A DNA stretch of 44,393 nucleotides, taken from positions 1 to 44,393 of IMG/VR virus record IMGVR_UViG_3300035698_009618. One strand, given 5' to 3'. Made by a program: the position numbers and the translations under genes. Below the pieces are notes generated by a model, which saw nothing but the letters and a program-made list of their open reading frames with translations, did no database searches and was not told the DNA's origin. This document shows, in pieces, positions 128 through 44,393 of this stretch. This DNA is from a virus. Every line of letters starts with the position of its first letter. Position 1 is the first letter of the stretch.

Positions 128-496
128 CTCTCTGAGAACTTTCCATGTGCTGCCCACATTTTTAGGATTATGTTTAGCACAAGAGCCACTAATCATTTTC
201 CAATTACCCGCAGCAGGTGCTGTCTTAAAAGAGCCAGTAGTTGTGACCGCCGCTTGCGTGATAGCTACAGTGTATTCCTTATCAGCTGCCAGCCCACCAA
301 TAGTGACTATACCTGTATGGCATAAGGTCGAACCAACACCTTGCCCAACCCTTGTCGCTACGACTGGAGTTGTGCCACCTGAGCAAACAACAGTTACAGC
401 ATTATCATTGTTAAAGGTAACAACACTTATTTTTACTTCTGCTGTGGTTGCATAACCAACTCTGAATCTAACTCTATCTACTGTAGGACCAGCCAT
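1..496 (-). CDS. Tail protein with PhoD-like phosphatase domain, N-terminal part
   Basis: This is the N-terminal 165 codons of a gene that crosses the contig join and continues from 44,266 down to a TAG at 41,991. The joined protein has 923 residues. The ATG overlaps the TAA of the upstream lectin-like gene by one base, which suggests translational coupling. Residues 1-95 look like a small beta domain, as found in front of purple-acid/PhoD phosphatases. The enzyme domain starts near residue 98 with W-K-M-I-S-G-S-C. At 134-141 the sequence A-H-I-D-D-L-G-Y matches the metal-binding 'H-x-G-D-x-x-Y' stretch of this superfamily, with D in place of the usual G. The family assignment rests on motifs only. 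The likely role is a virion enzyme acting on a phosphodiester or phosphate of the host surface, which is inference. Confidence 0.8.
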   Translation of the reverse strand, partial: MAGPTVDRVRFRVGYATTAEVKISVVTFNNDNAVTVVCSGGTTPVVATRVGQGVGSTLCHTGIVTIGGLAADKEYTVAITQAAVTTTGSFKTAPAAGNWKMISGSCAKHNPKNVGSTWKVLREYIQTNKPTAYAHIDDLGYFDTLRVSNFSAVGSSDPETSITQS

Positions 497-2017: not shown

Positions 2018-2545
2018 TTATGAGGGTATATAAGTTATAGCTACTGTGCGTCCACTACCGTTAGTCCAGCTAGGGAAGTGAGCAGTAGGGCTATCCCAAG
2101 CCAATACAGTGATAGTACCATCATATAGCTCAGTAGCATCTGCTATCAGGAAGGCAGACTGGCCTTCTGGGGTAACGCTAACAATCCTACCCAGCCAGTC
2201 ACCTGTGATAATGAGGGCAAAGCTATAAGCATTGTTGGCCGCTTTAAAGGTACTAATCCGATTAATAGTCTCACCATCTAAGGCTGAATTATCAATACTG
2301 CCAACATCAGCGCCTGCTATACCTACCCCAGCAGCATAACCATTCCACTCTTGTGTAGAACTGCCACCACCTACACCTTTCTGGTAAAAGCCAACAGTTA
2401 CAGTTCTGATTACTGCTACTTGACGGTTCCAGACCACATGAGTAACTGCGCTATCGTCAATCCAGTCAACTCTATCAACATCAGAGCCTCCCCACTTAAC
2501 ATCATCTGGGTCGTTACCATCATTAAGCCAACGTAAGTTACTCAT
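2018..2545 (-). CDS. Tail-associated protein, unknown
   Basis: This 175-residue protein is rich in tryptophan, aspartate and glycine near its N-terminus (repeated W-x-x-D/G patterns) and in beta-type sequence later. The ATG overlaps the stop of the upstream gene (TAATG), indicating coupling. Its position among fibre-type genes suggests a virion or tail-fibre component. I do not recognise the family. Confidence 0.55.
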   Translation of the reverse strand: MSNLRWLNDGNDPDDVKWGGSDVDRVDWIDDSAVTHVVWNRQVAVIRTVTVGFYQKGVGGGSSTQEWNGYAAGVGIAGADVGSIDNSALDGETINRISTFKAANNAYSFALIITGDWLGRIVSVTPEGQSAFLIADATELYDGTITVLAWDSPTAHFPSWTNGSGRTVAITYIPS

Positions 2546-3375
2546 TAGGACGCACTCAGAGTTAGCACACCGCCTACGAAGCTGGCCTTCATAGTACCAC
2601 CCAAGATAGCTGTGGCATAGTCAGTACGTCGAATAGCTCTAGACGTTGAGCTACCAGCCGAAGCTACTGCGAATACTTGACTGGCATCTCCGGCGGCTGG
2701 TGCTCGGCCATTAGCATTATTGTTAGCAGCAGTTGCAGCAACTTGCGCATCGTCCGCGTCACTTTGAGCGTTATCAGCAGCAGTCTGCGCATTACCAGCA
2801 GCCGTATCCGCATCATCCGCAGTTAACTGAGCAGCGGCAGCAGCAGTAACTCCCGCTGATCCTCGGTTGTAGGCTAGTCTAGCAGCAGCCGGAGTAGCAG
2901 CTATACCATCAGCTTCACCACTAGTAGCGTCAATAGCATCATCTAGCCTAACTGAGCCAGTAAGTGTAGCAGTAGCTATGCCAATGTATGGATTAAGTAA
3001 TACCAAGTGAGTAGAAGTCTTGTATAGCCTAAGTACTGATCGGCTCTGAATCATACCAGCTACTATATCAGTGGTATTGTCCAGCTGCTTAATAGTCAGC
3101 GTGGTGCCAGGAGTAGGACCGGGTGCCAAAGTAGCTGCACCTGTGTTAGCTGCTGTTACTCTTATAGTATAAACCACACCAGTAGTTAAATTGTCAGCTA
3201 GGCTAGACTCAAAGTAAGCGTTACCTGAGTTAGTAGCTGTAGGTGGAGTGTCAATGTTATTATCACGCACCAGTATCTTAAGTGCTTTAAGTTCAGCAGC
3301 TGAGTAGCCTCCTGATATATTAACTGGTGGGGTATTGACATTGTTGGGATCAGCTACATAGGTACCTAAAGGCAT
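2545..3375 (-). CDS. Tail fibre-like protein with Ala/Asp coiled coil
   Basis: This 276-residue protein starts with beta-rich sequence. At about residues 175-225 it has an alanine/aspartate/glutamine repeat with an A-x-x-A-x-x-A-D-x-A heptad-like pattern, as seen in trimeric coiled coils of phage fibres. A short C-terminal beta domain follows (A-I-R-R-T-D-Y-A-T-A-I-L-G-G). This arrangement is typical of an adaptor fibre that trimerises through the coiled coil. It is directly coupled to the downstream gene at 2018-2545. Confidence 0.6.
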   Translation of the reverse strand: MPLGTYVADPNNVNTPPVNISGGYSAAELKALKILVRDNNIDTPPTATNSGNAYFESSLADNLTTGVVYTIRVTAANTGAATLAPGPTPGTTLTIKQLDNTTDIVAGMIQSRSVLRLYKTSTHLVLLNPYIGIATATLTGSVRLDDAIDATSGEADGIAATPAAARLAYNRGSAGVTAAAAAQLTADDADTAAGNAQTAADNAQSDADDAQVAATAANNNANGRAPAAGDASQVFAVASAGSSTSRAIRRTDYATAILGGTMKASFVGGVLTLSAS

Positions 3376-3387
3376 ACTAAGTTACTC

Positions 3388-4029
3388 CTAAGCGTTCATC
3401 AGTAATTCGGGGATGTGTTGGTTCTGGACTACAGACAAGTGGGTACTGGCTAACTTCTGGTTACCAACTGAGGCTAAGGCAAAGCCTAGCGCTTGGTCAA
3501 TAACAGCCAGAGGCATACTGTCAAGTAGCCAGTCTGAATAACCTGCAATAGCTGGGTCAGTCATAGCCCGCATAGTACCGTCAGTATTAGATACTACGGC
3601 CTTGGTGGGTCTATGAGTTATACCACTTACTAAGAATGAGTTGACTTGGGCCCCAGCGTAGAAGCTAACACCCCCATTGATCTGGTAGCAGGTACTTACA
3701 GCTGGGCCGTATAAAGTTCTGCGCTTAACTACTTCACTGATATTAATAATATCTAATGGCGCGCCAATGATGTTACCGTATACATCCAACGCTGCTACTT
3801 GTTCTAGTAGCCTAACGTCATCCGGTAATGTAAATGTACCTACAGTTACTGAATTAGCTGCGAAGGTTATATCAGCTAGCCCTATTACCCACTCAGTTCT
3901 ATCCCGTGGGAAAGCTGCAACAGCATGCATAGTCCTAACTGCTTGTAGAATACGTTGATTAATAACTGCTGTCTTATCAGGACGCCTTACAGTCTCATGT
4001 ACTTGGTCAATTATCTCGCCTAATAACAT
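3388..4029 (-). CDS. Head-tail adaptor-like protein
   Basis: This 213-residue protein follows the major capsid gene and precedes the fibre genes. The N-terminal helical region (R-I-L-Q-A-V-R-T-M-H near residue 30, then F-P-R-D-R) resembles the podoviral adaptor/tail-tubular-A type proteins that sit between portal and nozzle. The length is in the usual range of about 200 residues. The assignment rests on size, position and this weak N-terminal pattern. Confidence 0.5.
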   Translation of the reverse strand: MLLGEIIDQVHETVRRPDKTAVINQRILQAVRTMHAVAAFPRDRTEWVIGLADITFAANSVTVGTFTLPDDVRLLEQVAALDVYGNIIGAPLDIINISEVVKRRTLYGPAVSTCYQINGGVSFYAGAQVNSFLVSGITHRPTKAVVSNTDGTMRAMTDPAIAGYSDWLLDSMPLAVIDQALGFALASVGNQKLASTHLSVVQNQHIPELLMNA

Positions 4030-4064
4030 GTAAGTTATCCCAGTAATACTAAATATTAGTTACC

Positions 4065-4090
4065 AAAAAAGGCCACCCGAAGGCAGCCTT
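4065..4090 (-). terminator. Terminator or attenuator after the capsid gene
   Basis: On the minus strand there is a nine-base stem with two G-T wobble pairs around a TTCG tetraloop, followed by a run of six T. It lies downstream of the major capsid gene and upstream of the adaptor gene. It could partly terminate late transcription so that capsid mRNA is made in excess, or stabilise the 3' end of that mRNA. Confidence 0.75.
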
Positions 4091-4154: not shown

Positions 4155-5363
4155 TTACGCACCAGCGGTTAGGTTGTGGATGATACCCCAGCCAGTTGGG
4201 TTAGTCATCTCAACAGTAAGCTCAGAAGTATAGACACCTGAAGTAGCATCAACACCGTCATAAGCAACATCTTTGTGCGCAGTATCACGTAAGTACTGAA
4301 AGTCAATAGTACCTAAGTCAGCAACAATAGCCATTTTCTTAGTGGCTACGTGGGCATTCAATAAAGGATGCTCTACCATTTCGAACATACCACGACTAGT
4401 ACGGAAGCTGTGGAACTGCTGGCCAAACTGAGTAGACTCAGGAGTAAACTGCAAGCGACCATTAGGAGTAGCACGAGCAATTTCGTTAAGAGTTTCAATA
4501 GCTTGTGAGCCACAGAACAGAGTCTTAACACCAGTGCTACGGCCTTTAATAACAGTATCAAGAGTCGCGTGTAACATAGACTCCAACTGATCAAAGGTAG
4601 TAGTAGTACCAGCCGATGCAATGTTACCAGGAGCGTACTCAGTAACAATAGCTTCAATGCCTGACATAGTACGCATTGGGCGACCGTTATATACTGAGGC
4701 AGACTTGCGGCCAAAGATAGTAGACCACTCAATGTCTTGAGCGTGCAAGAACATAGCATCTTCCCGGTTCTCAGCAATCATGCTAATACCAGGCTCAACA
4801 GCTACAGCTGCTGCTGTCTCAGTCATGTCCCAAGCGTTACGGAAGATCTGAGTAAAGTTAGTATGCTCAGACATAGTGATACTACGAGCAACAGGCATTG
4901 AGCTACCTTCCTCGTTTGAGTTACCAACTTCGATAAGTACTTCGTTATCAGAGATAGCAGTACCAATAGTACCAGCAAAACCACGAACAACTACCAAGTC
5001 AGTTGCATCAGTAACAGCAGTAACTTGAAGTAACTCAGGAGCTGCGTAAGTACCAGCTGAGAAGTTAAACTTCATGTAGATAGTGCCAGCTACTACATTA
5101 GTAGTGGAGTCAACAACCAAAGTGGTCGCAGTTGTGTTGATAGCACCGTTAACAGTAACAGAAGGGAACAGTGCTTGCTTAACCCAGACTGAGTGAGCAG
5201 TTGCCATGATACGTTTATGCTGAGCTAGCCCAGACATAGCGAACATTGGAGCAGCGCCGTTAGGCTGTAACCGCATTAAGTTAGCTGTAAAGCTACGTTG
5301 TAAGATGCTGCCGCCTTGGTCGCTTGATAACGCAGCCAGCTCAGCTGTTGTATAAAATCGCAT
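4155..5363 (-). CDS. Major capsid protein (DUF5309/SU10-like)
   Basis: This 402-residue protein lies directly downstream of the scaffold, as usual for a major head protein. The middle stretch S-I-T-M-S-E-H-T-N-F-T-Q-I-F followed by W-D-M-T-E-T-A-A-A-V resembles the conserved 'nyTQif...S.Ta' core of the DUF5309/SU10-type head proteins, which have the HK97 fold. A beta-rich insert lies at about residues 65-150 and could be a surface domain. The ATG has an AAGGA site at good spacing. The capsid role is secure from context; the family name is my recollection of the motif. Confidence 0.85.
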   Translation of the reverse strand: MRFYTTAELAALSSDQGGSILQRSFTANLMRLQPNGAAPMFAMSGLAQHKRIMATAHSVWVKQALFPSVTVNGAINTTATTLVVDSTTNVVAGTIYMKFNFSAGTYAAPELLQVTAVTDATDLVVVRGFAGTIGTAISDNEVLIEVGNSNEEGSSMPVARSITMSEHTNFTQIFRNAWDMTETAAAVAVEPGISMIAENREDAMFLHAQDIEWSTIFGRKSASVYNGRPMRTMSGIEAIVTEYAPGNIASAGTTTTFDQLESMLHATLDTVIKGRSTGVKTLFCGSQAIETLNEIARATPNGRLQFTPESTQFGQQFHSFRTSRGMFEMVEHPLLNAHVATKKMAIVADLGTIDFQYLRDTAHKDVAYDGVDATSGVYTSELTVEMTNPTGWGIIHNLTAGA

Positions 5364-31618: not shown

Positions 31619-34600
31619 CTAGAACTTCAACTCCTCAAACTCATCTAAGTTATTACCTAGTATCTTCTGTAAATACCTACCCTGTGGATTACTAACATTA
31701 TCACGCATTCGGTTAATGTTACTCTCATGCGCATTAGCATAGTTGTTCTTAATCCACCGATTAAACGTACCAGCATTGCCACCCTTCTCAGTGTAGCTAC
31801 GCATCACTCCCTGTAACTCATCACCTGTTAGCCCATCCTCGCTACGCATCTGAGTCTTAACAGATTTGCCTAAGCTCTCTAACTCACCCAGCTGGTGGGT
31901 ACGATAACCTTTTGCGCGGTAGAAACTCTGAACAGCTATACCCTCGTCAAGAGTCTTAGCTCCCATAGCTTTAGCTATAGCCATAGCGTAGCCCCACTCT
32001 TGGTAGTTAAACATTACCGAGCCTTGGTTAGTTGTCCTATAGCCCTGCCATAACTGCGCACCTCCAGCCAGTGGCCGGTTCATGCCATTAGTAGCTAATG
32101 CATTCAAGAATGTCTGACCTCCATCACCTTCACCTACCAGTGCATCTAACGTGCTTACTGCGTTGTCTATGAGTTTCGAGTAGAAACTAATAGCAGGAAT
32201 CTCAGAAAAACTTGTGGGAATAAGAATAGGAGTCCTAGGAGTAAGGTCACCTCGGCTGTAAAAATCAACACCCTTACCCCCCAGTAGCGGGCGAGTGAGT
32301 GAGCTTCCACCACCATATAGCAGAAACTCACTAACAGGATTATCGAAACTCTCTGTTGCCAGTGAGTAAAAATCTTTCTCACCATTGGTACGCTCTCCGA
32401 TATGCTGGTTAGCTAACTGAAATCCGGGTACTGACTGGAGGCCAAAGGTGCTAGCCTGCAAACCCATCATGTACTTAGCAGCTCCATTACCATCTTCCAC
32501 ATGCTTTAAGAATTGCTGGAACAAGTTAAACTGGTAAGTCTGGAATAGGCCTACTGCTTGCCCAGCCCAACCTTGGAACAGTGTAGGCCGTTGACTAGCA
32601 TTATAGTTACCATGCGTCCTAGCTACAAAAGTTTTAATAGTTGACCAGTACAGTGGGTTATCCTTAGGAACCCCCATCACATCCAGTATCTGCCTAGCCG
32701 AATCCGCAGCTACAAACTTAACACTAGTCTCCGAGAAGTCAACAGGAGTAGCTAGTTTGTCTATAACCTTATTCACGTTGTTAGCCCAATCAGCCTTATC
32801 AGCTACAAATGCAGCGTCAGTGGCCATTTGACGTAACTCAAGTACATCATTACCTACTATGCCACGCTCCTTCAAAGCTAACATAAAGGTCTTGTCATCT
32901 TGAAACAAGTTATTAACAGCCTGAAACATAAGCTTAGTGTTACTAGGCATCCTAGCACCTAAGTCATTATAAGGCACAGTAGTTAGCAAGTCTAGTCTCT
33001 TAAGGGCAGCCGGATCTAAGTTAGCAAAGCTAGCCTTGAGTGCCACCATCTCACCTGACAGCATAATAGGAGTTGACATACCATTAACTATAGCTTGTGC
33101 AGTGTCTAACCTTAGCATCAAAGTTGAGAAGATACTGTTAGACTTACTAACTAGTGGCTTCATGACTGACCTAGGAGCACCAGCATTGGCCATAATCCAA
33201 GACTCAGCGCCCTCATAGTAAGCTTTACCTAGGCCGTAGTTATCTATAACTTTACCAAAACCTTCCCAGTCATCGCTATCTTTAGCTTGTATCCAAGCAC
33301 CTTTGATAGCATGAGCGCCTCTACTTAGCGCAGCGTCGGCTAGCTCCTGAGTAGTATGCCACCAAGTGTGAGACTGGGTATCAGTAATATCCAGCATCAT
33401 ATTGATCTGCTTCTCATAAGTAGATAACTTCTTACCCTTCTTATTAATACTACCATACAGCTTATTAGTATTATGCAGTTGCTCTAAGGTCTTAATCCTA
33501 GCTGAATACTTAAGCCTCATAGTCTGAGTGATAACATTGTTACGCTGGTTAATCATAGAACTAACCATATCCTCAGCTACTCTAGGGTTAGGCTCAGGAA
33601 GTACATCCCATAGCTGGCCATCACTACGTAGGCTAGAGTCAATCTGAGTATCAGTAAGTGCTAACTCTGCGTCATACTTACCTCTAGCATCTAGGGCCTG
33701 AGCTCGCTCTTCAGTGGTTTGAATTAGTAGGTCGCCATTAACATCTTTATTTTTAAGATGCTGTACTTTCTTCTCTAGCGCTGCCTCACTGTGAGCTGTT
33801 ACCATGCCAGAACCTTTAGCAGTCCAAGGGTCAGTAGCACCGTTCTTCATAGTAACAAAGGCCATGTGGTTAAACTGATTAGAGTCGAACTTGCCAGGAT
33901 ATATCCTGTCCATGTCAATACCAGTAGCCTCATTAGCAGCTGCCTTAAGTTTACCGTAAGCCTCTACTATATACTTTTTGTTAGTCTGCTGGTACATATG
34001 CAGAAACTCAACAACTGACTTATTCTGAATCTGATATAACTTCTTAGTGCCTGGACCTTTAGCTACGTTCAAAGCTAGTGTATCAGTTAGCTCATCCATA
34101 ACTTTATCAGCATTAGCTTGCACAGTCCGCTTCAGCTCAGTTAGCCCATCAATAGCATCTGCATCACCTTTAGCAGCTCTAGCAGTTAAGTCGGCTAAGG
34201 CCTCAGTAACATCATCACCTAGAGTTAGGTTATCAACAGAACCTTTAAGTTTATCTAGTACATCAGACTCTACAATAGCACCACGCACATCAGTAATACC
34301 AGAGGCTTTTATACCTCTAGTGTTAATCATATCAACTACGTCTATACCGAAGTGGCTATACAGGTTTACAGTACCTGCATCTAGCGCATCAGCTATGTCA
34401 CCCAAGAACTTAAAATTACCTGAGCGCAAAGTAGATTGATGCAGAACTGATAACTCATGCATAGCTTCTTTAGAGTTACTAACCTGAGTGGTAGTCTCCA
34501 GCATATCTTGGTTAATAGCAGTAGCGTCCTTACGCTTTTTCTGGCCAGCCGCCGCTCCATCTGCTTGGTTAACTGACCCACCTGATAGGTAAGGTTGGTT

Positions 34601-37207
34601 AGCTGAAGTGACCAAACCAGCAGTGTCAGAGTTAGATGTAATATCATGCGACAGCGACACACTACCATCAGCCTGTAGCTCAGGACTACTAAACAGTACA
34701 GCGTCCTCGGCTAAGATACTATCAGCGTAGCTTTGGTTAACCTTCTCAACTCGCTGAAGCCGCTGGTCAATCTCAGCACGACTAGTAGCTCTAACTCCAT
34801 TCTTGTCAAAGGAGTCAGCTGAGTATTCAATAGCTATAGTGTTAGGTCGGAACTCACTTAGACCTTTAATGCTATCGTTAGCTTGTGGGCCACGATACAA
34901 CTTATCTTGTGTATAGAATAAATCTCCTGGCCTAACTGGCCCCATGCCCTTACCTGCTTGGGCTAGGTTAACAAATTCCTCACTTACATCAGCGTAAGCA
35001 GCCACTTCGCTCAAGTACAAACTTGTACCATCGTCACTAACCTTAGCTGCCCGAGCTATAAGCGACCGCTTAGCACCTTCAATGTGTTGGTATAACTCAC
35101 CAGCCGATGCTATGTCTCTGACTTCTTTAGTAGCAGGATTCATTATCTTAAGAGGCCCATGCTGAAACTTATAGAAGTTAAGTGCACCTTGTAAGTTAAT
35201 CAGATCACCCTCGTCAAATGGCTCACTACGTATAGTTTTAAGTAGATTACCCCCTGAGCTAACTAGTCCAACACCTGCACCTTTAGGGCTAGCAGCCCAC
35301 GCGTATCCAGCAGTAGCTTCGACTGTTGACATTTCAGTAACACTGAGGGACCGACCCCTACCAGTGACATAGGTTTTACCGCCAGCTGTTACTACATTAC
35401 GCCCAATAGTTACAGCGCCTAGGTCACTGATATAAGGTGCTGGAGTGTTGTTAACTATCTTACCAGTTTGTGGGCTAAAGTAAGCATTACGCGTACCGTA
35501 CTTATGCTTTAACGCACCGTTGTTATTCATCCACTCATACAGCGGCTTGAACTGAGCCTTGTCTCCTTTAATACTAGCTATCACTCCGTCGTCTAACTCA
35601 GTCTTATTAAATATCCGGTAAGCTGTGGCGAACAACTGGTCAGGGTTAGACATAGAAGTACTGAGACCTACTAGCTGACCTTGCTGCTCTAGCATAGCAT
35701 TCGTAACGTTATCACCTGCGGTTTTAACTTTTGAGTTAATTACCTCTAACGCGTCAAAAGTAATCCTGTAAGGTGAATCATGCTTCATAGCTAACTGGTG
35801 TAATGAATCTTGAATCTTAAGCGGGTCTCGTATAACTTTACCTGCCTTAGCGTGGTTAACCGGATAACGCTTAGTCTTACCGTCAGGTGTCTTACGTGCA
35901 ATATAGACAGGACGGTTAGTTGTAGACCACAATGCTTTAATGTCAGCGGACGCCATAAAGCCTATAGCCTCATAGAATACGTCAGCAGCCTCTTGACCTG
36001 TTAAGTTGTTACTTAGCAAATCACTAGTTATTCTAGCTACACCTGCATTCTCGTCTAATAGCATCTCAGGATACAGACGAGTCATGTTAGTCTCTTCTAA
36101 GGTCTTGGGTAACTTGGCACCATCAGGGGCAGCTGCGGCTACAGTACCCCGTATAAGCTCCTCATCCTTAAGTGTACGCAACTTAGCTACACCAGCGAAT
36201 AGATCTAACATCTTGTCTTCAGTTACGCCGTTAAGCTCTAGCGCCTCCATCACCTCATTGCCTAACACATTACCCTGAGACGCGTCATTTAAGGACTTAA
36301 GTACAATGTTCTGACCCTGAGCAATACCAGCAGTTAGTGTTGCTATCTCAGGAGCATTAGCTATTTTCTCAGCTTCACTCATGCTGTTATATTTAGCTAG
36401 CAGAGTCTTCTTATCCTGCAACTCAGTAAGCTGAATAGCTACCCGCTCCCCTACTACAGAGTTAGTGCCGCCTGCGAAGATAGTAGCTAGTGGGTTAAGC
36501 TCAAGCTCAGCTGCGTCAGTAAAAGCTTTAAGTGCACCTTTCTCTACAAAGTAACCGATGCCTCCACCTATTACGCCACCCAGTGCAATACCAAACGCAG
36601 CTGTGTCTAGGTTATTACCTATAGAGTCAAAGTACCCCAGCTCTCCACGACTAAGTGTAGAGTTCTGATTCATAGTTAACAGTGTAGCCGCCTCATAGGT
36701 AGCAGCTTCCATAAACTGCTGACCAGCATTCTGCATAATTAACTTGTTCTTAATCTGGTCAGTAATACCACGCTGGTTCATACCTTGAATCGAAGCCCTA
36801 TGAGCTGCCATGCGGGCGTCTGGTATCATAGTGTTACGAATACCAGTAGCTAACGCAGACGTGCGAGTTGCCAATGTGCCTTGGGCTATAGCGCGGCCTA
36901 CTTTGATAGCACCGAGACCTGGAAGCAGAGAGCCAGCTACTAAGCCTACACCATCAACTAGGTCAGTGTTGTTAGCATAGTACTCACCATACCCTTCACC
37001 TAGGTTATCTGTGATAAACTCCTCGGTATCAACATACTCACCATCACCGCCAAAGGCATTACCCAAGGCTATGAATGTGTTAGTAAAACTGAGGCCCGCT
37101 GATATAACTGAGTCAGCTACACCATACTGGATAAACTCACCAGTCTTCTCTAAGAAGCCAGTCTGCTCTTCTAGCTTTGAGTACTTATCTAAGAATGAAT
37201 TAGCCAT
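31619..37207 (-). CDS. Large internal virion (DNA ejection) protein
   Basis: This 1862-residue protein is the last and longest gene of the late arm. It is mainly helical with glycine-rich hydrophobic segments at about 84-110 and 200-222 that could enter membranes. It has long coiled stretches and no catalytic motif I can defend. Size, position and character match the giant internal proteins of podoviruses that leave the head first and extend the tail through the cell envelope. I looked for a lytic transglycosylase motif and did not find a convincing one. Its start has AGGA nine bases upstream. Confidence 0.75.
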   Translation of the reverse strand: MANSFLDKYSKLEEQTGFLEKTGEFIQYGVADSVISAGLSFTNTFIALGNAFGGDGEYVDTEEFITDNLGEGYGEYYANNTDLVDGVGLVAGSLLPGLGAIKVGRAIAQGTLATRTSALATGIRNTMIPDARMAAHRASIQGMNQRGITDQIKNKLIMQNAGQQFMEAATYEAATLLTMNQNSTLSRGELGYFDSIGNNLDTAAFGIALGGVIGGGIGYFVEKGALKAFTDAAELELNPLATIFAGGTNSVVGERVAIQLTELQDKKTLLAKYNSMSEAEKIANAPEIATLTAGIAQGQNIVLKSLNDASQGNVLGNEVMEALELNGVTEDKMLDLFAGVAKLRTLKDEELIRGTVAAAAPDGAKLPKTLEETNMTRLYPEMLLDENAGVARITSDLLSNNLTGQEAADVFYEAIGFMASADIKALWSTTNRPVYIARKTPDGKTKRYPVNHAKAGKVIRDPLKIQDSLHQLAMKHDSPYRITFDALEVINSKVKTAGDNVTNAMLEQQGQLVGLSTSMSNPDQLFATAYRIFNKTELDDGVIASIKGDKAQFKPLYEWMNNNGALKHKYGTRNAYFSPQTGKIVNNTPAPYISDLGAVTIGRNVVTAGGKTYVTGRGRSLSVTEMSTVEATAGYAWAASPKGAGVGLVSSGGNLLKTIRSEPFDEGDLINLQGALNFYKFQHGPLKIMNPATKEVRDIASAGELYQHIEGAKRSLIARAAKVSDDGTSLYLSEVAAYADVSEEFVNLAQAGKGMGPVRPGDLFYTQDKLYRGPQANDSIKGLSEFRPNTIAIEYSADSFDKNGVRATSRAEIDQRLQRVEKVNQSYADSILAEDAVLFSSPELQADGSVSLSHDITSNSDTAGLVTSANQPYLSGGSVNQADGAAAGQKKRKDATAINQDMLETTTQVSNSKEAMHELSVLHQSTLRSGNFKFLGDIADALDAGTVNLYSHFGIDVVDMINTRGIKASGITDVRGAIVESDVLDKLKGSVDNLTLGDDVTEALADLTARAAKGDADAIDGLTELKRTVQANADKVMDELTDTLALNVAKGPGTKKLYQIQNKSVVEFLHMYQQTNKKYIVEAYGKLKAAANEATGIDMDRIYPGKFDSNQFNHMAFVTMKNGATDPWTAKGSGMVTAHSEAALEKKVQHLKNKDVNGDLLIQTTEERAQALDARGKYDAELALTDTQIDSSLRSDGQLWDVLPEPNPRVAEDMVSSMINQRNNVITQTMRLKYSARIKTLEQLHNTNKLYGSINKKGKKLSTYEKQINMMLDITDTQSHTWWHTTQELADAALSRGAHAIKGAWIQAKDSDDWEGFGKVIDNYGLGKAYYEGAESWIMANAGAPRSVMKPLVSKSNSIFSTLMLRLDTAQAIVNGMSTPIMLSGEMVALKASFANLDPAALKRLDLLTTVPYNDLGARMPSNTKLMFQAVNNLFQDDKTFMLALKERGIVGNDVLELRQMATDAAFVADKADWANNVNKVIDKLATPVDFSETSVKFVAADSARQILDVMGVPKDNPLYWSTIKTFVARTHGNYNASQRPTLFQGWAGQAVGLFQTYQFNLFQQFLKHVEDGNGAAKYMMGLQASTFGLQSVPGFQLANQHIGERTNGEKDFYSLATESFDNPVSEFLLYGGGSSLTRPLLGGKGVDFYSRGDLTPRTPILIPTSFSEIPAISFYSKLIDNAVSTLDALVGEGDGGQTFLNALATNGMNRPLAGGAQLWQGYRTTNQGSVMFNYQEWGYAMAIAKAMGAKTLDEGIAVQSFYRAKGYRTHQLGELESLGKSVKTQMRSEDGLTGDELQGVMRSYTEKGGNAGTFNRWIKNNYANAHESNINRMRDNVSNPQGRYLQKILGNNLDEFEELKF

Positions 37208-39836: not shown

Positions 39837-40277
39837 CTAGTCTAAATCAAAACTTATGTTATCGAGTGTTAACCAAGTAGCGCTAGCGTAGTAGCAGTTA
39901 ACATCACCGTTAGTATTAATGTCTATCCTAGCCACAGTCTCACCTTCTGTAATAGCAGTAAGCACTGTGCGCTTAGTTGGCCGATAGCCTACAGGTAAAT
40001 TAAACATAGTAGTATTATTAGTGACTGTGCCAAATCTAACAAAGCCACGTAACTTGACAGTTAAACCACCTACTAGCTTATACTCCGCATCATTAAAGCC
40101 ATCTCCATGGTTAACCCAACTGTTCTCAAAACTAACAGCAGTCCAAGCTGTGCTGGAGGTTCTAGTAACTACAGTCTCTAGTACTACTCCCCACTTAACT
40201 AACTTCTTACGTAGGGAGTTAGTACTGTCCATTAACTTAACTGGTATAAAAGCTATTTTACTATAACTGTCCGTCAT
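39837..40277 (-). CDS. Fibre or head-decoration beta-sandwich protein
   Basis: This 146-residue protein starts at the ATG that overlaps the stop of the nozzle-like gene (TAATG); a TTG six bases upstream also lies in frame. The pattern W-V-N-H-G-D-G-F...Y-K-L-V-G-G-L-T-V-K-L-R-G-F-V...F-N-L-P-V-G-Y-R-P is the common phage receptor-binding/fibre tip beta-sandwich, 'lrG.v..Gt....LP.GyrP'. It probably decorates the tail or fibre. Confidence 0.65.
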   Translation of the reverse strand: MTDSYSKIAFIPVKLMDSTNSLRKKLVKWGVVLETVVTRTSSTAWTAVSFENSWVNHGDGFNDAEYKLVGGLTVKLRGFVRFGTVTNNTTMFNLPVGYRPTKRTVLTAITEGETVARIDINTNGDVNCYYASATWLTLDNISFDLD

Positions 40278-41935
40278 TACCAAGTCTCTCCAATGTCGTC
40301 CAGATTAATTTCTAAACCCTTCAGTGAGTTAATACCCTCTAGGACTATAGTATTTCTAGCTCCTACTATAACCTCTACGTATTCAATCTTAGTAGTGTCA
40401 AACTCATTAAGAGCTGGTAGCTCCTTAAACTGCCTAACAGCTGGGTCAGTATCTGAGTAACCGTAGACTGCGGTATCGTCATTAGTTCTAGCAGAGTTAA
40501 GCGCAAAGCTATTAGAGTCAGTAACTACTGTGACTTTACTAAGACTAGATTGCGCTGAGCGACTTAGGCGTAAATCCGGATAAATCATTCTAGACTTAAG
40601 TACCTGAAAGTCTGCTGTGTCAGCTAGTGTAGATATATCTATAGGAGTCAGCCTACGAATTGAGCCATCAAGTGCTACCACGCCAATAGCCACAGTGTTA
40701 ACCTGAGGATTAGTGTCGGTACCTAGCATATCCTCAAAGGTATCAACTGTGTCATCGAAATGCTCTAGCCAGTCATCAAATATCTTACCACCGGATGTTA
40801 TGCTGACAAAGCTAAGTATAGCTAAGTGTGGATACCTGATCCTAGACCACTCACCTAGCACTGTATCATACATTAATATAAAGTCTTTGGTGATACCTTC
40901 GGGCCCATAGCTAATACATAGCTGTCGGTTGCCAATAAAGAATAGTTGTACATCAAAAGTAATACCAGTAGCCAGCAGCTCCAGCCGCCTAGTAGCATCA
41001 TTGTAATCCTCTACTTTATCACCTGCTAGTAGCTCTGTAACTTTAGGGAATATATACTTAGCTTCGTTTTGATTCAGTAGCGCTAAGCCACTAGCAGCCC
41101 AAGCAAATGTGCTAGTCAAGTTAGAGTCAATTAACGCATGGCGGTTAGTGAACACACCAGTTGAGTTATTAACTATGTCAAAGATCCAAGGATTATCCGG
41201 ATCATTAGAGTAGGTAGCTTTAACTATATTATTAACTGTGAATATATGAAACCCATCCTCAGCTCCAGCTACAAATATAATGGCTGAGTTAATACCCAAC
41301 ACTTTAGCTGAGCCAGCACCGGAGTTAATGCCAGTGCCACCCGGAGTAAAGTACCTCTCATTCAACGGGGAGGAGTAATAGACAGTGTCGGTGTCAACTA
41401 GCACCATGTAACCAAGTGCGGCACAGGCTGACACAATGTTATTTTGAGTGATACCCGCTAATGTAACATCAACGGTGTCCTCGAATTCATTACCAGTGGC
41501 AGAGTTAGGATCAAACTCCTGCATAGTATTACCATTACTAAAGATATAAGTAATGTCTTTAAGTATAAATATTGATACCTCAGTAGCGCTAGATGGCTCA
41601 AACACAGTTACCCATGCCCCAGCATCCAAAGCTACCCAGCGATCAGTACCCATCATTAAGTAACTCGTAGCTCCTTGACTACGAACAATGGCAGGCACTA
41701 AACCTCTGGAGCTGAATTGTAGTAAGTCAGCCGCAGGTATCAGTGGTATATCAGGTCTAATATCTACTATAGCTGCTTGACGTCCGTCACCCATAGCCCA
41801 CATGTTCTCAATCCAACTAAGTTCAGCTTTCGCTACAACTACATCAGTTGAGTTCATCTTACCTGAGTTAAGGGCCGCAGGTTTAACCTGACCACTGAGC
41901 ATGGCCAAGTTTTTAGTGGAAGTATCAAGTAGCAT
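40277..41935 (-). CDS. Tail nozzle-like beta-propeller protein
   Basis: This 552-residue protein has repeated short beta blades (for example W-V-A-L-D-A-G-A-W, I-F-I-L-K-D-I-T-Y-I-F, S-A-I-I-F-V-A-G) typical of podoviral nozzle/stabilisation proteins such as P22 gp10 and T7 gp12. Length and position in the late arm agree. It would form the hexameric tail tube end that closes the DNA channel. The fold is inferred from pattern only. Confidence 0.6.
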   Translation of the reverse strand: MLLDTSTKNLAMLSGQVKPAALNSGKMNSTDVVVAKAELSWIENMWAMGDGRQAAIVDIRPDIPLIPAADLLQFSSRGLVPAIVRSQGATSYLMMGTDRWVALDAGAWVTVFEPSSATEVSIFILKDITYIFSNGNTMQEFDPNSATGNEFEDTVDVTLAGITQNNIVSACAALGYMVLVDTDTVYYSSPLNERYFTPGGTGINSGAGSAKVLGINSAIIFVAGAEDGFHIFTVNNIVKATYSNDPDNPWIFDIVNNSTGVFTNRHALIDSNLTSTFAWAASGLALLNQNEAKYIFPKVTELLAGDKVEDYNDATRRLELLATGITFDVQLFFIGNRQLCISYGPEGITKDFILMYDTVLGEWSRIRYPHLAILSFVSITSGGKIFDDWLEHFDDTVDTFEDMLGTDTNPQVNTVAIGVVALDGSIRRLTPIDISTLADTADFQVLKSRMIYPDLRLSRSAQSSLSKVTVVTDSNSFALNSARTNDDTAVYGYSDTDPAVRQFKELPALNEFDTTKIEYVEVIVGARNTIVLEGINSLKGLEINLDDIGETW

Positions 41936-41990: not shown

Positions 41991-44393
41991 CTAACCACTC
42001 TTGGTCAGCTGAACCGTAATGCTGTTAGTAGATCCATTACATACTAGCAGTAGGTTCCTAGGGCCAGCAATAGCACGAGTATTATTGGTAGCATCCATGA
42101 TCATTGCTGACGTGTCCACTGGGTCCTGCGCATCCGCAATGGCTATAAAGCTACCTAGCTGATCTTCCGTCCTAGCATCCATCTCAGTAAATACCACTGT
42201 GTCTGCTGCCGCAGCGTTAATCATAGTAAAGTTAAAGACAGCACCTGCGGGGATACCTATAGGTACCACAAAAGACGCCTGAGTGGGGCCAGCTACTATG
42301 ATAGTACCTTTAACTTTCTTGCTATAGGCTATGTTGACCAGTACTGGGAAGTACGAAGTACCTGCACCATTAGTAGCAGCTATCCAGACAGTGTAAGTAC
42401 CGGGCCCACCACTGGGCGTACCTACTATAGCTGTGGGGTCTGACCAATTAACACCACCAACCAGCCCTTTGTCTACAATAGAGTAACTGACTGCTCCGGA
42501 TATGTTACCACCACCTACTAGATCTAAGCTAGTCATAGCTACGCCAGTAGTTAAAGCTATTGTGGTAAACGGCGTATCTAACTTAGGCAAGGGTAGTGTG
42601 CCTTTAATGTAGAAACCCCACAACGCCAAGTTTTCCGTTGCTTGATCTGTGCGAACAAAGGTAGTAGGTAAGCCTGAGTCAGCAGTTATATTATCTCGAA
42701 AGTTGGCGCCGGCTCCCGTCGTAGATACTGCAACAGTGTTGCTGTTAACACCCGATGACTGCGATACACAAGCCAACATATAGGACTTTCCAGCCTCTAG
42801 CTTGTAGTTGCCGTCCTCAGGGATTTGCTGAAGATCGCCGATCGCGCCAGCGTTATTCGGAGTAACGAGTCTAGTTTCGGCTACTAATGTAGCCGGCATC
42901 CACCCTCGCGTAGCATCGTCAACCGCCTCATATAGGCCGATATCTAAAAGCCCTGTAACAGCGCCGCCGCCAGCGCCCTGTGTCCTTGCGCCCAGTAAAG
43001 TAACTGTTTCTGTTCCGTCGGCTAAGTAGATTAATCCTTGACCTGTAGACCTCACATCCTGAAATGAGCTTACTCTCGTACCTGTGCCAACTATTGTAGC
43101 TGGGTCTAACCCTATATATCCGCTCATTGTCTCATTCCTCAAAATAAAATTATTGCTGCCGTTAGTATAACGTAGCTCGTATGGTCCTGCCATTGTAGTA
43201 TTAGTTGGTAGATTTATATAACTAACTGTTACGTCCGCATCTGTAAAAGACATTTCCATAAACGCCGCATAATCTACCTGCGGTACTGCGTTAGATGCTG
43301 TTTGTGCTTGGTCTAAATGAAACTCCATTGACCCACCTTGAGCCAATTCTCGATTTAAGCTACCAATCGAGCTAGAGTTTATAGTCCCGCAAAGAAACTC
43401 TGTTAATAACTCTCCGCCTGTTAAACCTGTTAACCCTAACCCCGTTGATCCGTTAGCCTGGTACTTAGTAACCGCAAAGGAGTGAACATCCCCCGCATAA
43501 TGAAAGTAATTGCCGTTTGTGCCATTACAGCTATCACTACTTAGTATTTGAGAGATATAACTTACAAATTCTTCAGGGTGAAAATCATACCAAGGCTGGT
43601 TATGCGCTGTAATTCGTTTAGCGGACAACAAAACCTTAACCGCTGCGCTGGACTCAGTGCTGGTAAAGTAGGTTACGAGGTCAGTTACTTGCTGGGAGCC
43701 TAAGTAATCAGGCCCTGTAACGTCAGTACCTACGCTTAAAGTTGTTCGGCTAGGGTTAGTGGGGAATGATGGCGCTGCTTTACCGTAAACACTCTGCCAT
43801 GTATTTGCACCTGTACCACTATCACTAACATCAGCTATATACCATGCAGAATCAGTTGCACCCCTCGGCCCTGAGTCACCGGAATTACACGCATCGTAGG
43901 CTTGAGCATGATTAATAAAATCAGGTGAGGCAAAAGCTACACCAGCAACTCTATGCCCCCAGTATTTAGTACCAGCTCGCAGTCTTGGTGGCCCAGCATT
44001 ACCCGCAAATACCTCCCATAAGTCACCCGCAAAGGCGTTAATAGTAGGGTTGTCGCCCATAGCGGCTTGGTCATTAAGTTGCTGTACATGTGATCTAGCA
44101 TCACCATAATACTCATGGTCACCAAATTGATCCCAGTGCGCAACATTCTGCATACACCATTCCCAGTCATCACGACCTGGGTAAGTGAACCACTCAGGAA
44201 ACATGCCATACCATGCCATCCAAGCCACAATATAGTCATCTTTTGACTCTGTTACTTGTGGTACGCCGCTTTGAGTTATTGAGGTTTCTGGGTCAGAGCT
44301 GCCAACCGCTGAAAAGTTACTCACTCTTAACGTATCAAAATAGCCCAAATCATCAATGTGAGCATAGGCTGTAGGTTTATTAGTCTGTATGTA
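41991..44393 (-). CDS. Tail protein with PhoD-like phosphatase domain, C-terminal part
   Basis: This is the continuation of the gene that starts at 496; bases 44,267-44,393 duplicate the window start. A TTG near 44,348 could be mistaken for a start, but the frame is open upstream across the join to a good ATG. In joined numbering, W-D-Q-F-G-D-H-E-Y (about 210-218) matches the 'DDHE' signature of PhoD-type enzymes. A conserved tryptophan-rich stretch precedes it, and H-Y-A-G-D-V-H-S (about 421-428) matches the last metal motif G-D-V-H. Residues from about 460 to 923 carry no motif I know and read as glycine/threonine-rich beta structure, as in phage fibres and adhesins. It lies between the lectin-like protein and the nozzle-like protein, so it is probably part of the tail tip or a tailspike. 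The substrate is unknown; lipopolysaccharide phosphate, teichoic-acid-like polymers and phosphorylated capsule are all possible. Confidence 0.78.
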   Translation of the reverse strand, partial: YIQTNKPTAYAHIDDLGYFDTLRVSNFSAVGSSDPETSITQSGVPQVTESKDDYIVAWMAWYGMFPEWFTYPGRDDWEWCMQNVAHWDQFGDHEYYGDARSHVQQLNDQAAMGDNPTINAFAGDLWEVFAGNAGPPRLRAGTKYWGHRVAGVAFASPDFINHAQAYDACNSGDSGPRGATDSAWYIADVSDSGTGANTWQSVYGKAAPSFPTNPSRTTLSVGTDVTGPDYLGSQQVTDLVTYFTSTESSAAVKVLLSAKRITAHNQPWYDFHPEEFVSYISQILSSDSCNGTNGNYFHYAGDVHSFAVTKYQANGSTGLGLTGLTGGELLTEFLCGTINSSSIGSLNRELAQGGSMEFHLDQAQTASNAVPQVDYAAFMEMSFTDADVTVSYINLPTNTTMAGPYELRYTNGSNNFILRNETMSGYIGLDPATIVGTGTRVSSFQDVRSTGQGLIYLADGTETVTLLGARTQGAGGGAVTGLLDIGLYEAVDDATRGWMPATLVAETRLVTPNNAGAIGDLQQIPEDGNYKLEAGKSYMLACVSQSSGVNSNTVAVSTTGAGANFRDNITADSGLPTTFVRTDQATENLALWGFYIKGTLPLPKLDTPFTTIALTTGVAMTSLDLVGGGNISGAVSYSIVDKGLVGGVNWSDPTAIVGTPSGGPGTYTVWIAATNGAGTSYFPVLVNIAYSKKVKGTIIVAGPTQASFVVPIGIPAGAVFNFTMINAAAADTVVFTEMDARTEDQLGSFIAIADAQDPVDTSAMIMDATNNTRAIAGPRNLLLVCNGSTNSITVQLTKSG
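44267..44393. repeat. Contig-end overlap, copy 2
   Basis: This is the second copy of the 127-base end overlap, identical to the first 127 bases. Joining base 44,266 to base 1 restores one uninterrupted gene on the minus strand. Confidence 0.93.

Follow-up and report, generated by a model that had tools for sequence, protein, structure and literature searches.

Host range is decided by the phage enzymes that cleave polymers of the host surface. These enzymes also serve as anti-capsule tools, and most of those studied cleave sugar bonds. Tail-borne phosphodiesterases with phosphate polymer targets have also been described, namely the baseplate GDPD of Lactobacillus phage Ld17 and the GDPD tail proteins of enterococcal phages; the notion that a phage phosphodiesterase can target wall polymers is thus accepted (PMC10194240). 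GDPD and PhoD belong to separate enzyme families. Cellular PhoD, a phosphodiesterase, has been implicated as an endo-acting teichoicase (PMC7086022). The Fe3+ of Bacillus subtilis PhoD is coordinated by Cys180 together with an Asp, a tyrosinate, and a His, and Asp and Asn residues bind two Ca2+ ions; mutation of metal ligands indicated that they are needed for full activity (PMC4223295).

PhoD domains are also found in phage proteins. Those of the Anabaena/Nostoc myophages Elbi, YongM, and Dfl-JY23 are about 650 aa in length, and when the phage was analyzed by LC-MS/MS, the YongM protein ranked seventh, at 35% coverage (PMC8875764). The phosphodiesterase ORF22 of Thermobifida phage P1312 and the proteins named purple acid phosphatases in Microbacterium (EG/EK) and Streptomyces phages contain a PhoD-like domain as well, and several are encoded in head-tail modules. 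ORF22 of P1312 (1,096 aa) is extended by a C-terminal CBM-like domain and was described by its authors as MPP plus CBM (PMC4569894); the table row for this ORF gives no MS coverage (PMC4569894). The authors of the Rowlf study considered the role of a PAP- or PhoD-like gene in phage to be unknown (PMC12352085), and no description of phage PhoD-like genes as a class was found in the literature.

Contig ends and the joined ORF

The window analyzed here is the whole of IMG/VR virus record IMGVR_UViG_3300035698_009618 (44,393 nucleotides). The ends of the contig are an exact 127-bp direct repeat (positions 1 to 127 and 44267 to 44393), which closes the contig. A length of 127 bp is typical of an assembler k-mer overlap; circular closure is therefore likelier than a biological 127-bp terminal repeat, and the contig probably represents an entire genome that closes as a circle. 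With the ends joined, a single minus-strand ORF of 923 aa ran without interruption from 496 to 1 and then from 44266 to 41991, as the first-pass annotation had proposed. The 5' part (positions 1 to 496, ATG at 496 to 494) joins position 44266 across the repeat, and the main part (positions 41991 to 44266) encodes residues from about 166 to 923 and the stop codon. Neither a tRNA nor an excess of promoter- or terminator-like sequences was found.

The terminase, portal, and capsid proteins placed the phage near Aeromonas phage P5, Polaromonas phage Tiera, EBPR podovirus 3, and the PaMx41-like phages, which belong to Fredfastierviridae. Portal and capsid identity to these kin phages was 23 to 35%.

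A divergent PhoD domain

Four metallophosphatase motifs, reported previously from reading of the translation, were all recovered in the same order: G104-S-C106, H135-I-D-D138-L-G-Y141, D211-Q-F-G-D215-H-E217, and G424-D425-V-H427. On the minus strand, the Fe-site motifs from G-S-C106 through Y141 lie at positions 74 to 187, the metal-loop motif (W210 to E217) at 44112 to 44135, and the G-D-V-H427 motif at 43482 to 43493. A profile built from 16 PhoD proteins of plasmids and phage Elbi, for which a PhoD consensus served as bait only, scored 37.2 bits against the joined protein, compared to 11.1 bits for the best of 1,000 shuffles and less than 3 bits for all other window proteins and kin-phage ORFs, the other window proteins falling below 0. 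A second profile, drawn from 159 viral and cellular PhoDs, scored 30.9 bits. The match was also found by hhalign (probability 95%, residues 56 to 471) and by blastp to a viral PhoD (L043; E = 1e-5). The PhoD alignments spanned the PhoD_N region, GSC, DDxxY, DHE, LGxxQ, and GDVH, followed by EFxxxxIxS. Residues from about 55 to 515 thus correspond to a divergent PhoD domain that includes an N-terminal FnIII-like, PhoD_N-type part (residues 55 to 95, approximately; positions 212 to 334, minus strand, placed by the PhoD profile alignment).

Neither the full-length protein nor its core had a significant match in searches of Pfam, PHROG, NCBIfam, and PDB sequences or by tblastn among phages. The PF09423 model itself had no match in the phage's own genome, pattern scans based on the single sequence recovered no relatives from viral or genome contigs, and no GDPD match was found in the protein.

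Residues 124 to 530 were modeled with AF2 (residues 1 to 123 absent) from an alignment (A3) with 80 homologs, giving a pLDDT of 59.8 and a pTM of 0.65. The model had the alpha-beta fold of the PhoD/PAP group. Its top solved structure was B. subtilis PhoD (2YEQ; Z = 18.0, rmsd 3.9, 290 residues; Foldseek E = 3e-4), with sphingomyelinase-like phosphodiesterases and purple acid phosphatases ranking next. Because the PhoD-homolog alignment helps to steer the model, this fold evidence depends in part on the sequence evidence. The best Foldseek match in BFVD was a 651-aa viral protein (E = 1e-6), which we infer from its identical length to be the Elbi phosphatase. A structure prediction followed by a search against PhoD structures had been suggested as a check on the annotation; it returned a PhoD fold for residues 124 to 530 rather than an unrelated one. 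The assignment to the metallophosphatases is thus borne out by the PhoD profile, hhalign, the predicted fold, and the conserved Fe-site ligands, and the front half of the 923-aa protein is almost certainly a PhoD homolog.

Metal ligands

C106, D138, Y141, and H427 align with the Fe ligands of PhoD, completing the Fe3+ set (Cys or Asp, Asp, Tyr, and His), and D215 and D425 are also retained. The Ca2+ ligand set, which in B. subtilis includes D265, D266, N271, N272, and D436, is near invariant in the PhoD family. Of the corresponding positions in the window protein, D215, D425, and D221 fit, and D211 does so only if a QFG insertion that separates the Asp pair of DDHE is bridged; this 3-residue insertion was found in none of 80 homologs. 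The position of N272, which is N or D in 75 of 80 relatives, is occupied by A222, and D137 replaces a Gly that is invariant among the 80 relatives. Judged from the sequence, phosphodiesterase catalysis by the PhoD domain is likely rather than assured, since the Ca-binding loop carries changes absent from the 80 homologs.

Purple acid phosphatase was considered as the family. In those enzymes, the ligands of the second metal are His2-Asp-Asn, within GNHE and GHxH (PMC4223295). The window protein has GDHE and GDVH, versus GNHE and GHVH of purple acid phosphatase, and this family was ruled out on the basis of the second-metal ligands.

The protein resembles B. subtilis PhoD (2YEQ; PF09423) in its predicted fold, PhoD_N-like region, Cys-Asp-Tyr-His Fe ligands, GDVH motif, and motif order. 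It differs in the altered DDHExxNN Ca loop, in DDxxY in place of GDxxY, in about 400 additional C-terminal residues, and in having neither a Tat nor a Sec signal. A PhoD domain within a phage protein is shared with Elbi, YongM, and Dfl-JY23 and with the P1312, Microbacterium, and Streptomyces phages, whose proteins have canonical metal motifs and come from cyanobacterial and actinobacterial phages, respectively; P1312 ORF22 is likewise an extended PhoD-like protein.

C-terminal extension

The C-terminal extension (residues 526 to 923; positions 41991 to 43187, minus strand) was modeled with low confidence. A model of 800 aa (residues 124 to 923) had a pLDDT of 47.4, with most of the C-terminal half below 50. 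The presence of an extension agrees with the first-pass annotation; its length is about 400 residues rather than the 460 given there, because the PhoD domain runs to about residue 515. The fiber-like character, also claimed, is putative: comparison with the window, the kin phages, and PhoD-carrying loci yielded no homolog. These residues would probably serve in trimerization or in attachment to the particle.

Genome context and probable virion location

The PhoD-like gene lies in the tail module, between the capsid block and a tail protein similar to gp21. The window genes placed in this paragraph are all on the minus strand. Directly upstream, a 275-aa gene (positions 496 to 1323) ends in a stop codon that overlaps the start of the PhoD-like gene in TAATG; its product resembled a lectin (LamG) by eye only and had no match in Pfam or PHROG. 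The same operon encodes a 276-aa fiber-like protein (positions 2545 to 3375), with a weak match to phrog_32540 (tail fiber), and the virion module is anchored by the major capsid protein (SU10_MCP; positions 4155 to 5363). Downstream is the gene for a 552-aa tail protein (positions 40277 to 41935) homologous to Aeromonas phage P5_0013 and to the N-terminal part of PaMx41 gp21. The equivalent slot holds a fiber with an S74 chaperone in phage P5 and a LamG protein in Tiera.

The N terminus (MAGPTVDRVRFRVG) had a maximum KD(12) of 1.38, indicating no signal peptide. Because of the tail-module slot and the lack of a signal peptide, the protein is argued to be part of the virion, and a tail-borne location is quite probable. 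This location, implied when the ORF was first called a tail protein, gains indirect support from the gene slot, the TAATG overlap, the lack of a signal peptide, and the MS detection of the YongM relative.

Two other proteins of the window were observed in this comparison. A protein of 1,862 aa (positions 31619 to 37207) has homologs in PaMx41 (gp24) and in Aeromonas phage P5 (P5_0008) and is probably the large ejected internal protein. A 148-aa tail protein (positions 39837 to 40283) shares one stretch, at 33% identity, with a viral contig (L033, positions 3786 to 4079) that carries a PhoD gene 1.7 kb beyond that stretch; the shared stretch may represent a common tail-tip domain.

Proposed function and alternatives

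The reading slightly favored here is that of a podovirus tail protein with a PhoD metallophosphodiesterase that cuts a phosphate-bearing envelope polymer at adsorption. It would belong to the virion tail of a podovirus that is a distant relative of Fredfastierviridae, with the N-terminal 515 residues, approximately, forming a divergent PhoD-family metallophosphodiesterase. During adsorption, the enzyme would most likely hydrolyze phosphodiester bonds in such a polymer (capsule, O-antigen, or an LPS substituent), allowing the tail to reach the cell surface. The hosts of the relatives are mostly Gram-negative. Virion incorporation, catalytic activity, substrate, and role in infection are features that we infer, and the chance of an active phosphodiesterase acting on an envelope polymer is put at even or slightly better.

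The Ca-site changes absent from the 80 homologs would also suit a catalytically weakened or dead PhoD fold that serves on the tail as a receptor-binding module only, as would the very long branch of the protein (5.9 changes per site) and the resemblance of the adjoining genes to binding proteins. This alternative is unlikely; C106, D138, Y141, H427, D215, and D425 are kept despite the divergence, which is expected under selection for metal binding. A loss of activity aside, the target could be membrane or LPS phosphate: the PhoD family contains a phospholipase D (PMC4223295), sphingomyelinase-type phosphodiesterases were the best structural matches after PhoD, and the podovirus relatives infect Gram-negative bacteria, which are without teichoic acid. 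An enzyme directed at phospholipid or at lipid A or core phosphates, comparable to Streptomyces chromofuscus phospholipase D, would aid genome entry. Such a role is rather improbable, as the gene adjoins fiber or lectin-like genes, not genes for ejection proteins, and a substrate does not follow from fold similarity.

PhoD is also the classical phosphate-starvation enzyme, and the alkaline phosphatase of YongM was grouped by its authors with DNA-anabolism genes (PMC8875764), so that an auxiliary metabolic enzyme outside the virion, supplying the infected cell with phosphate scavenged from organic phosphoesters, was weighed as well. It is very improbable given the structural operon with its TAATG coupling, the long C-terminal extension, and the finding of the YongM relative in phage particles (PMC8875764); moreover, without a signal peptide, the protein would have no way to act beyond the infected cell. 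If the preferred reading of a tail enzyme cutting an envelope polymer is true, a PhoD-type protein would add a metal-dependent phosphodiester cutter to the phage depolymerases and would offer a testable answer to the role of the PAP- or PhoD-like gene in phage (PMC12352085).

PhoD-like proteins in other phages

A tblastn search with the Elbi PhoD recovered 65 phage records (cyanophages and Streptomyces, Microbacterium, and Thermobifida phages), and an alignment scan found PhoD in 111 viral contigs, 80 of which were kept (L029 to L108). By a crude hydropathy test with uncurated start codons, a hydrophobic N terminus was present in 6% of viral versus 73% of cellular relatives; given the low viral fraction, the export signal appears to be a trait of cellular PhoDs rather than of the domain family. 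Long C termini (at least 350 residues after GDxH) were found in 36 of 66 viral and 3 of 34 cellular proteins. Genes upstream of viral PhoDs mostly had tape-measure or tail-family matches, 13 of 61 belonging to a single family; the PhoD gene of Streptomyces phage Tomas is surrounded by tRNA and small genes and is not in a tail module. The first-pass description of a virion phosphatase as unusual was overstated, since many phages have PhoD-like genes, often 3' of the tape measure gene. A virion PhoD has precedents in the 111 viral contigs, in many isolated phages, and in YongM LC-MS/MS.

In a tree of these proteins, the viral or cellular label switched 7 times, at least 3 of them on well-supported branches, and the window protein had by far the longest branch. 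Tentatively, tail-tip PhoD phosphodiesterases may form a neglected class in phages of many hosts, without signal peptides, with variable C-terminal extensions and repeated exchange with cells. The window protein would be a remote outlier of this class whose metal loop has been rebuilt, and the podovirus would use it to cut a surface polymer linked by phosphodiester bonds; as a type of depolymerase, it would differ from both the sugar-cutting tailspikes and the GDPD enzymes of baseplates. Two records labeled "Acinetobacter phage MD-2021a" (CAKLQH020000021.1 and CAKLQF020000019.1) carry a PhoD/PLD gene with bait identity like that of Acinetobacter plasmid genes and are possibly host DNA under a phage label.
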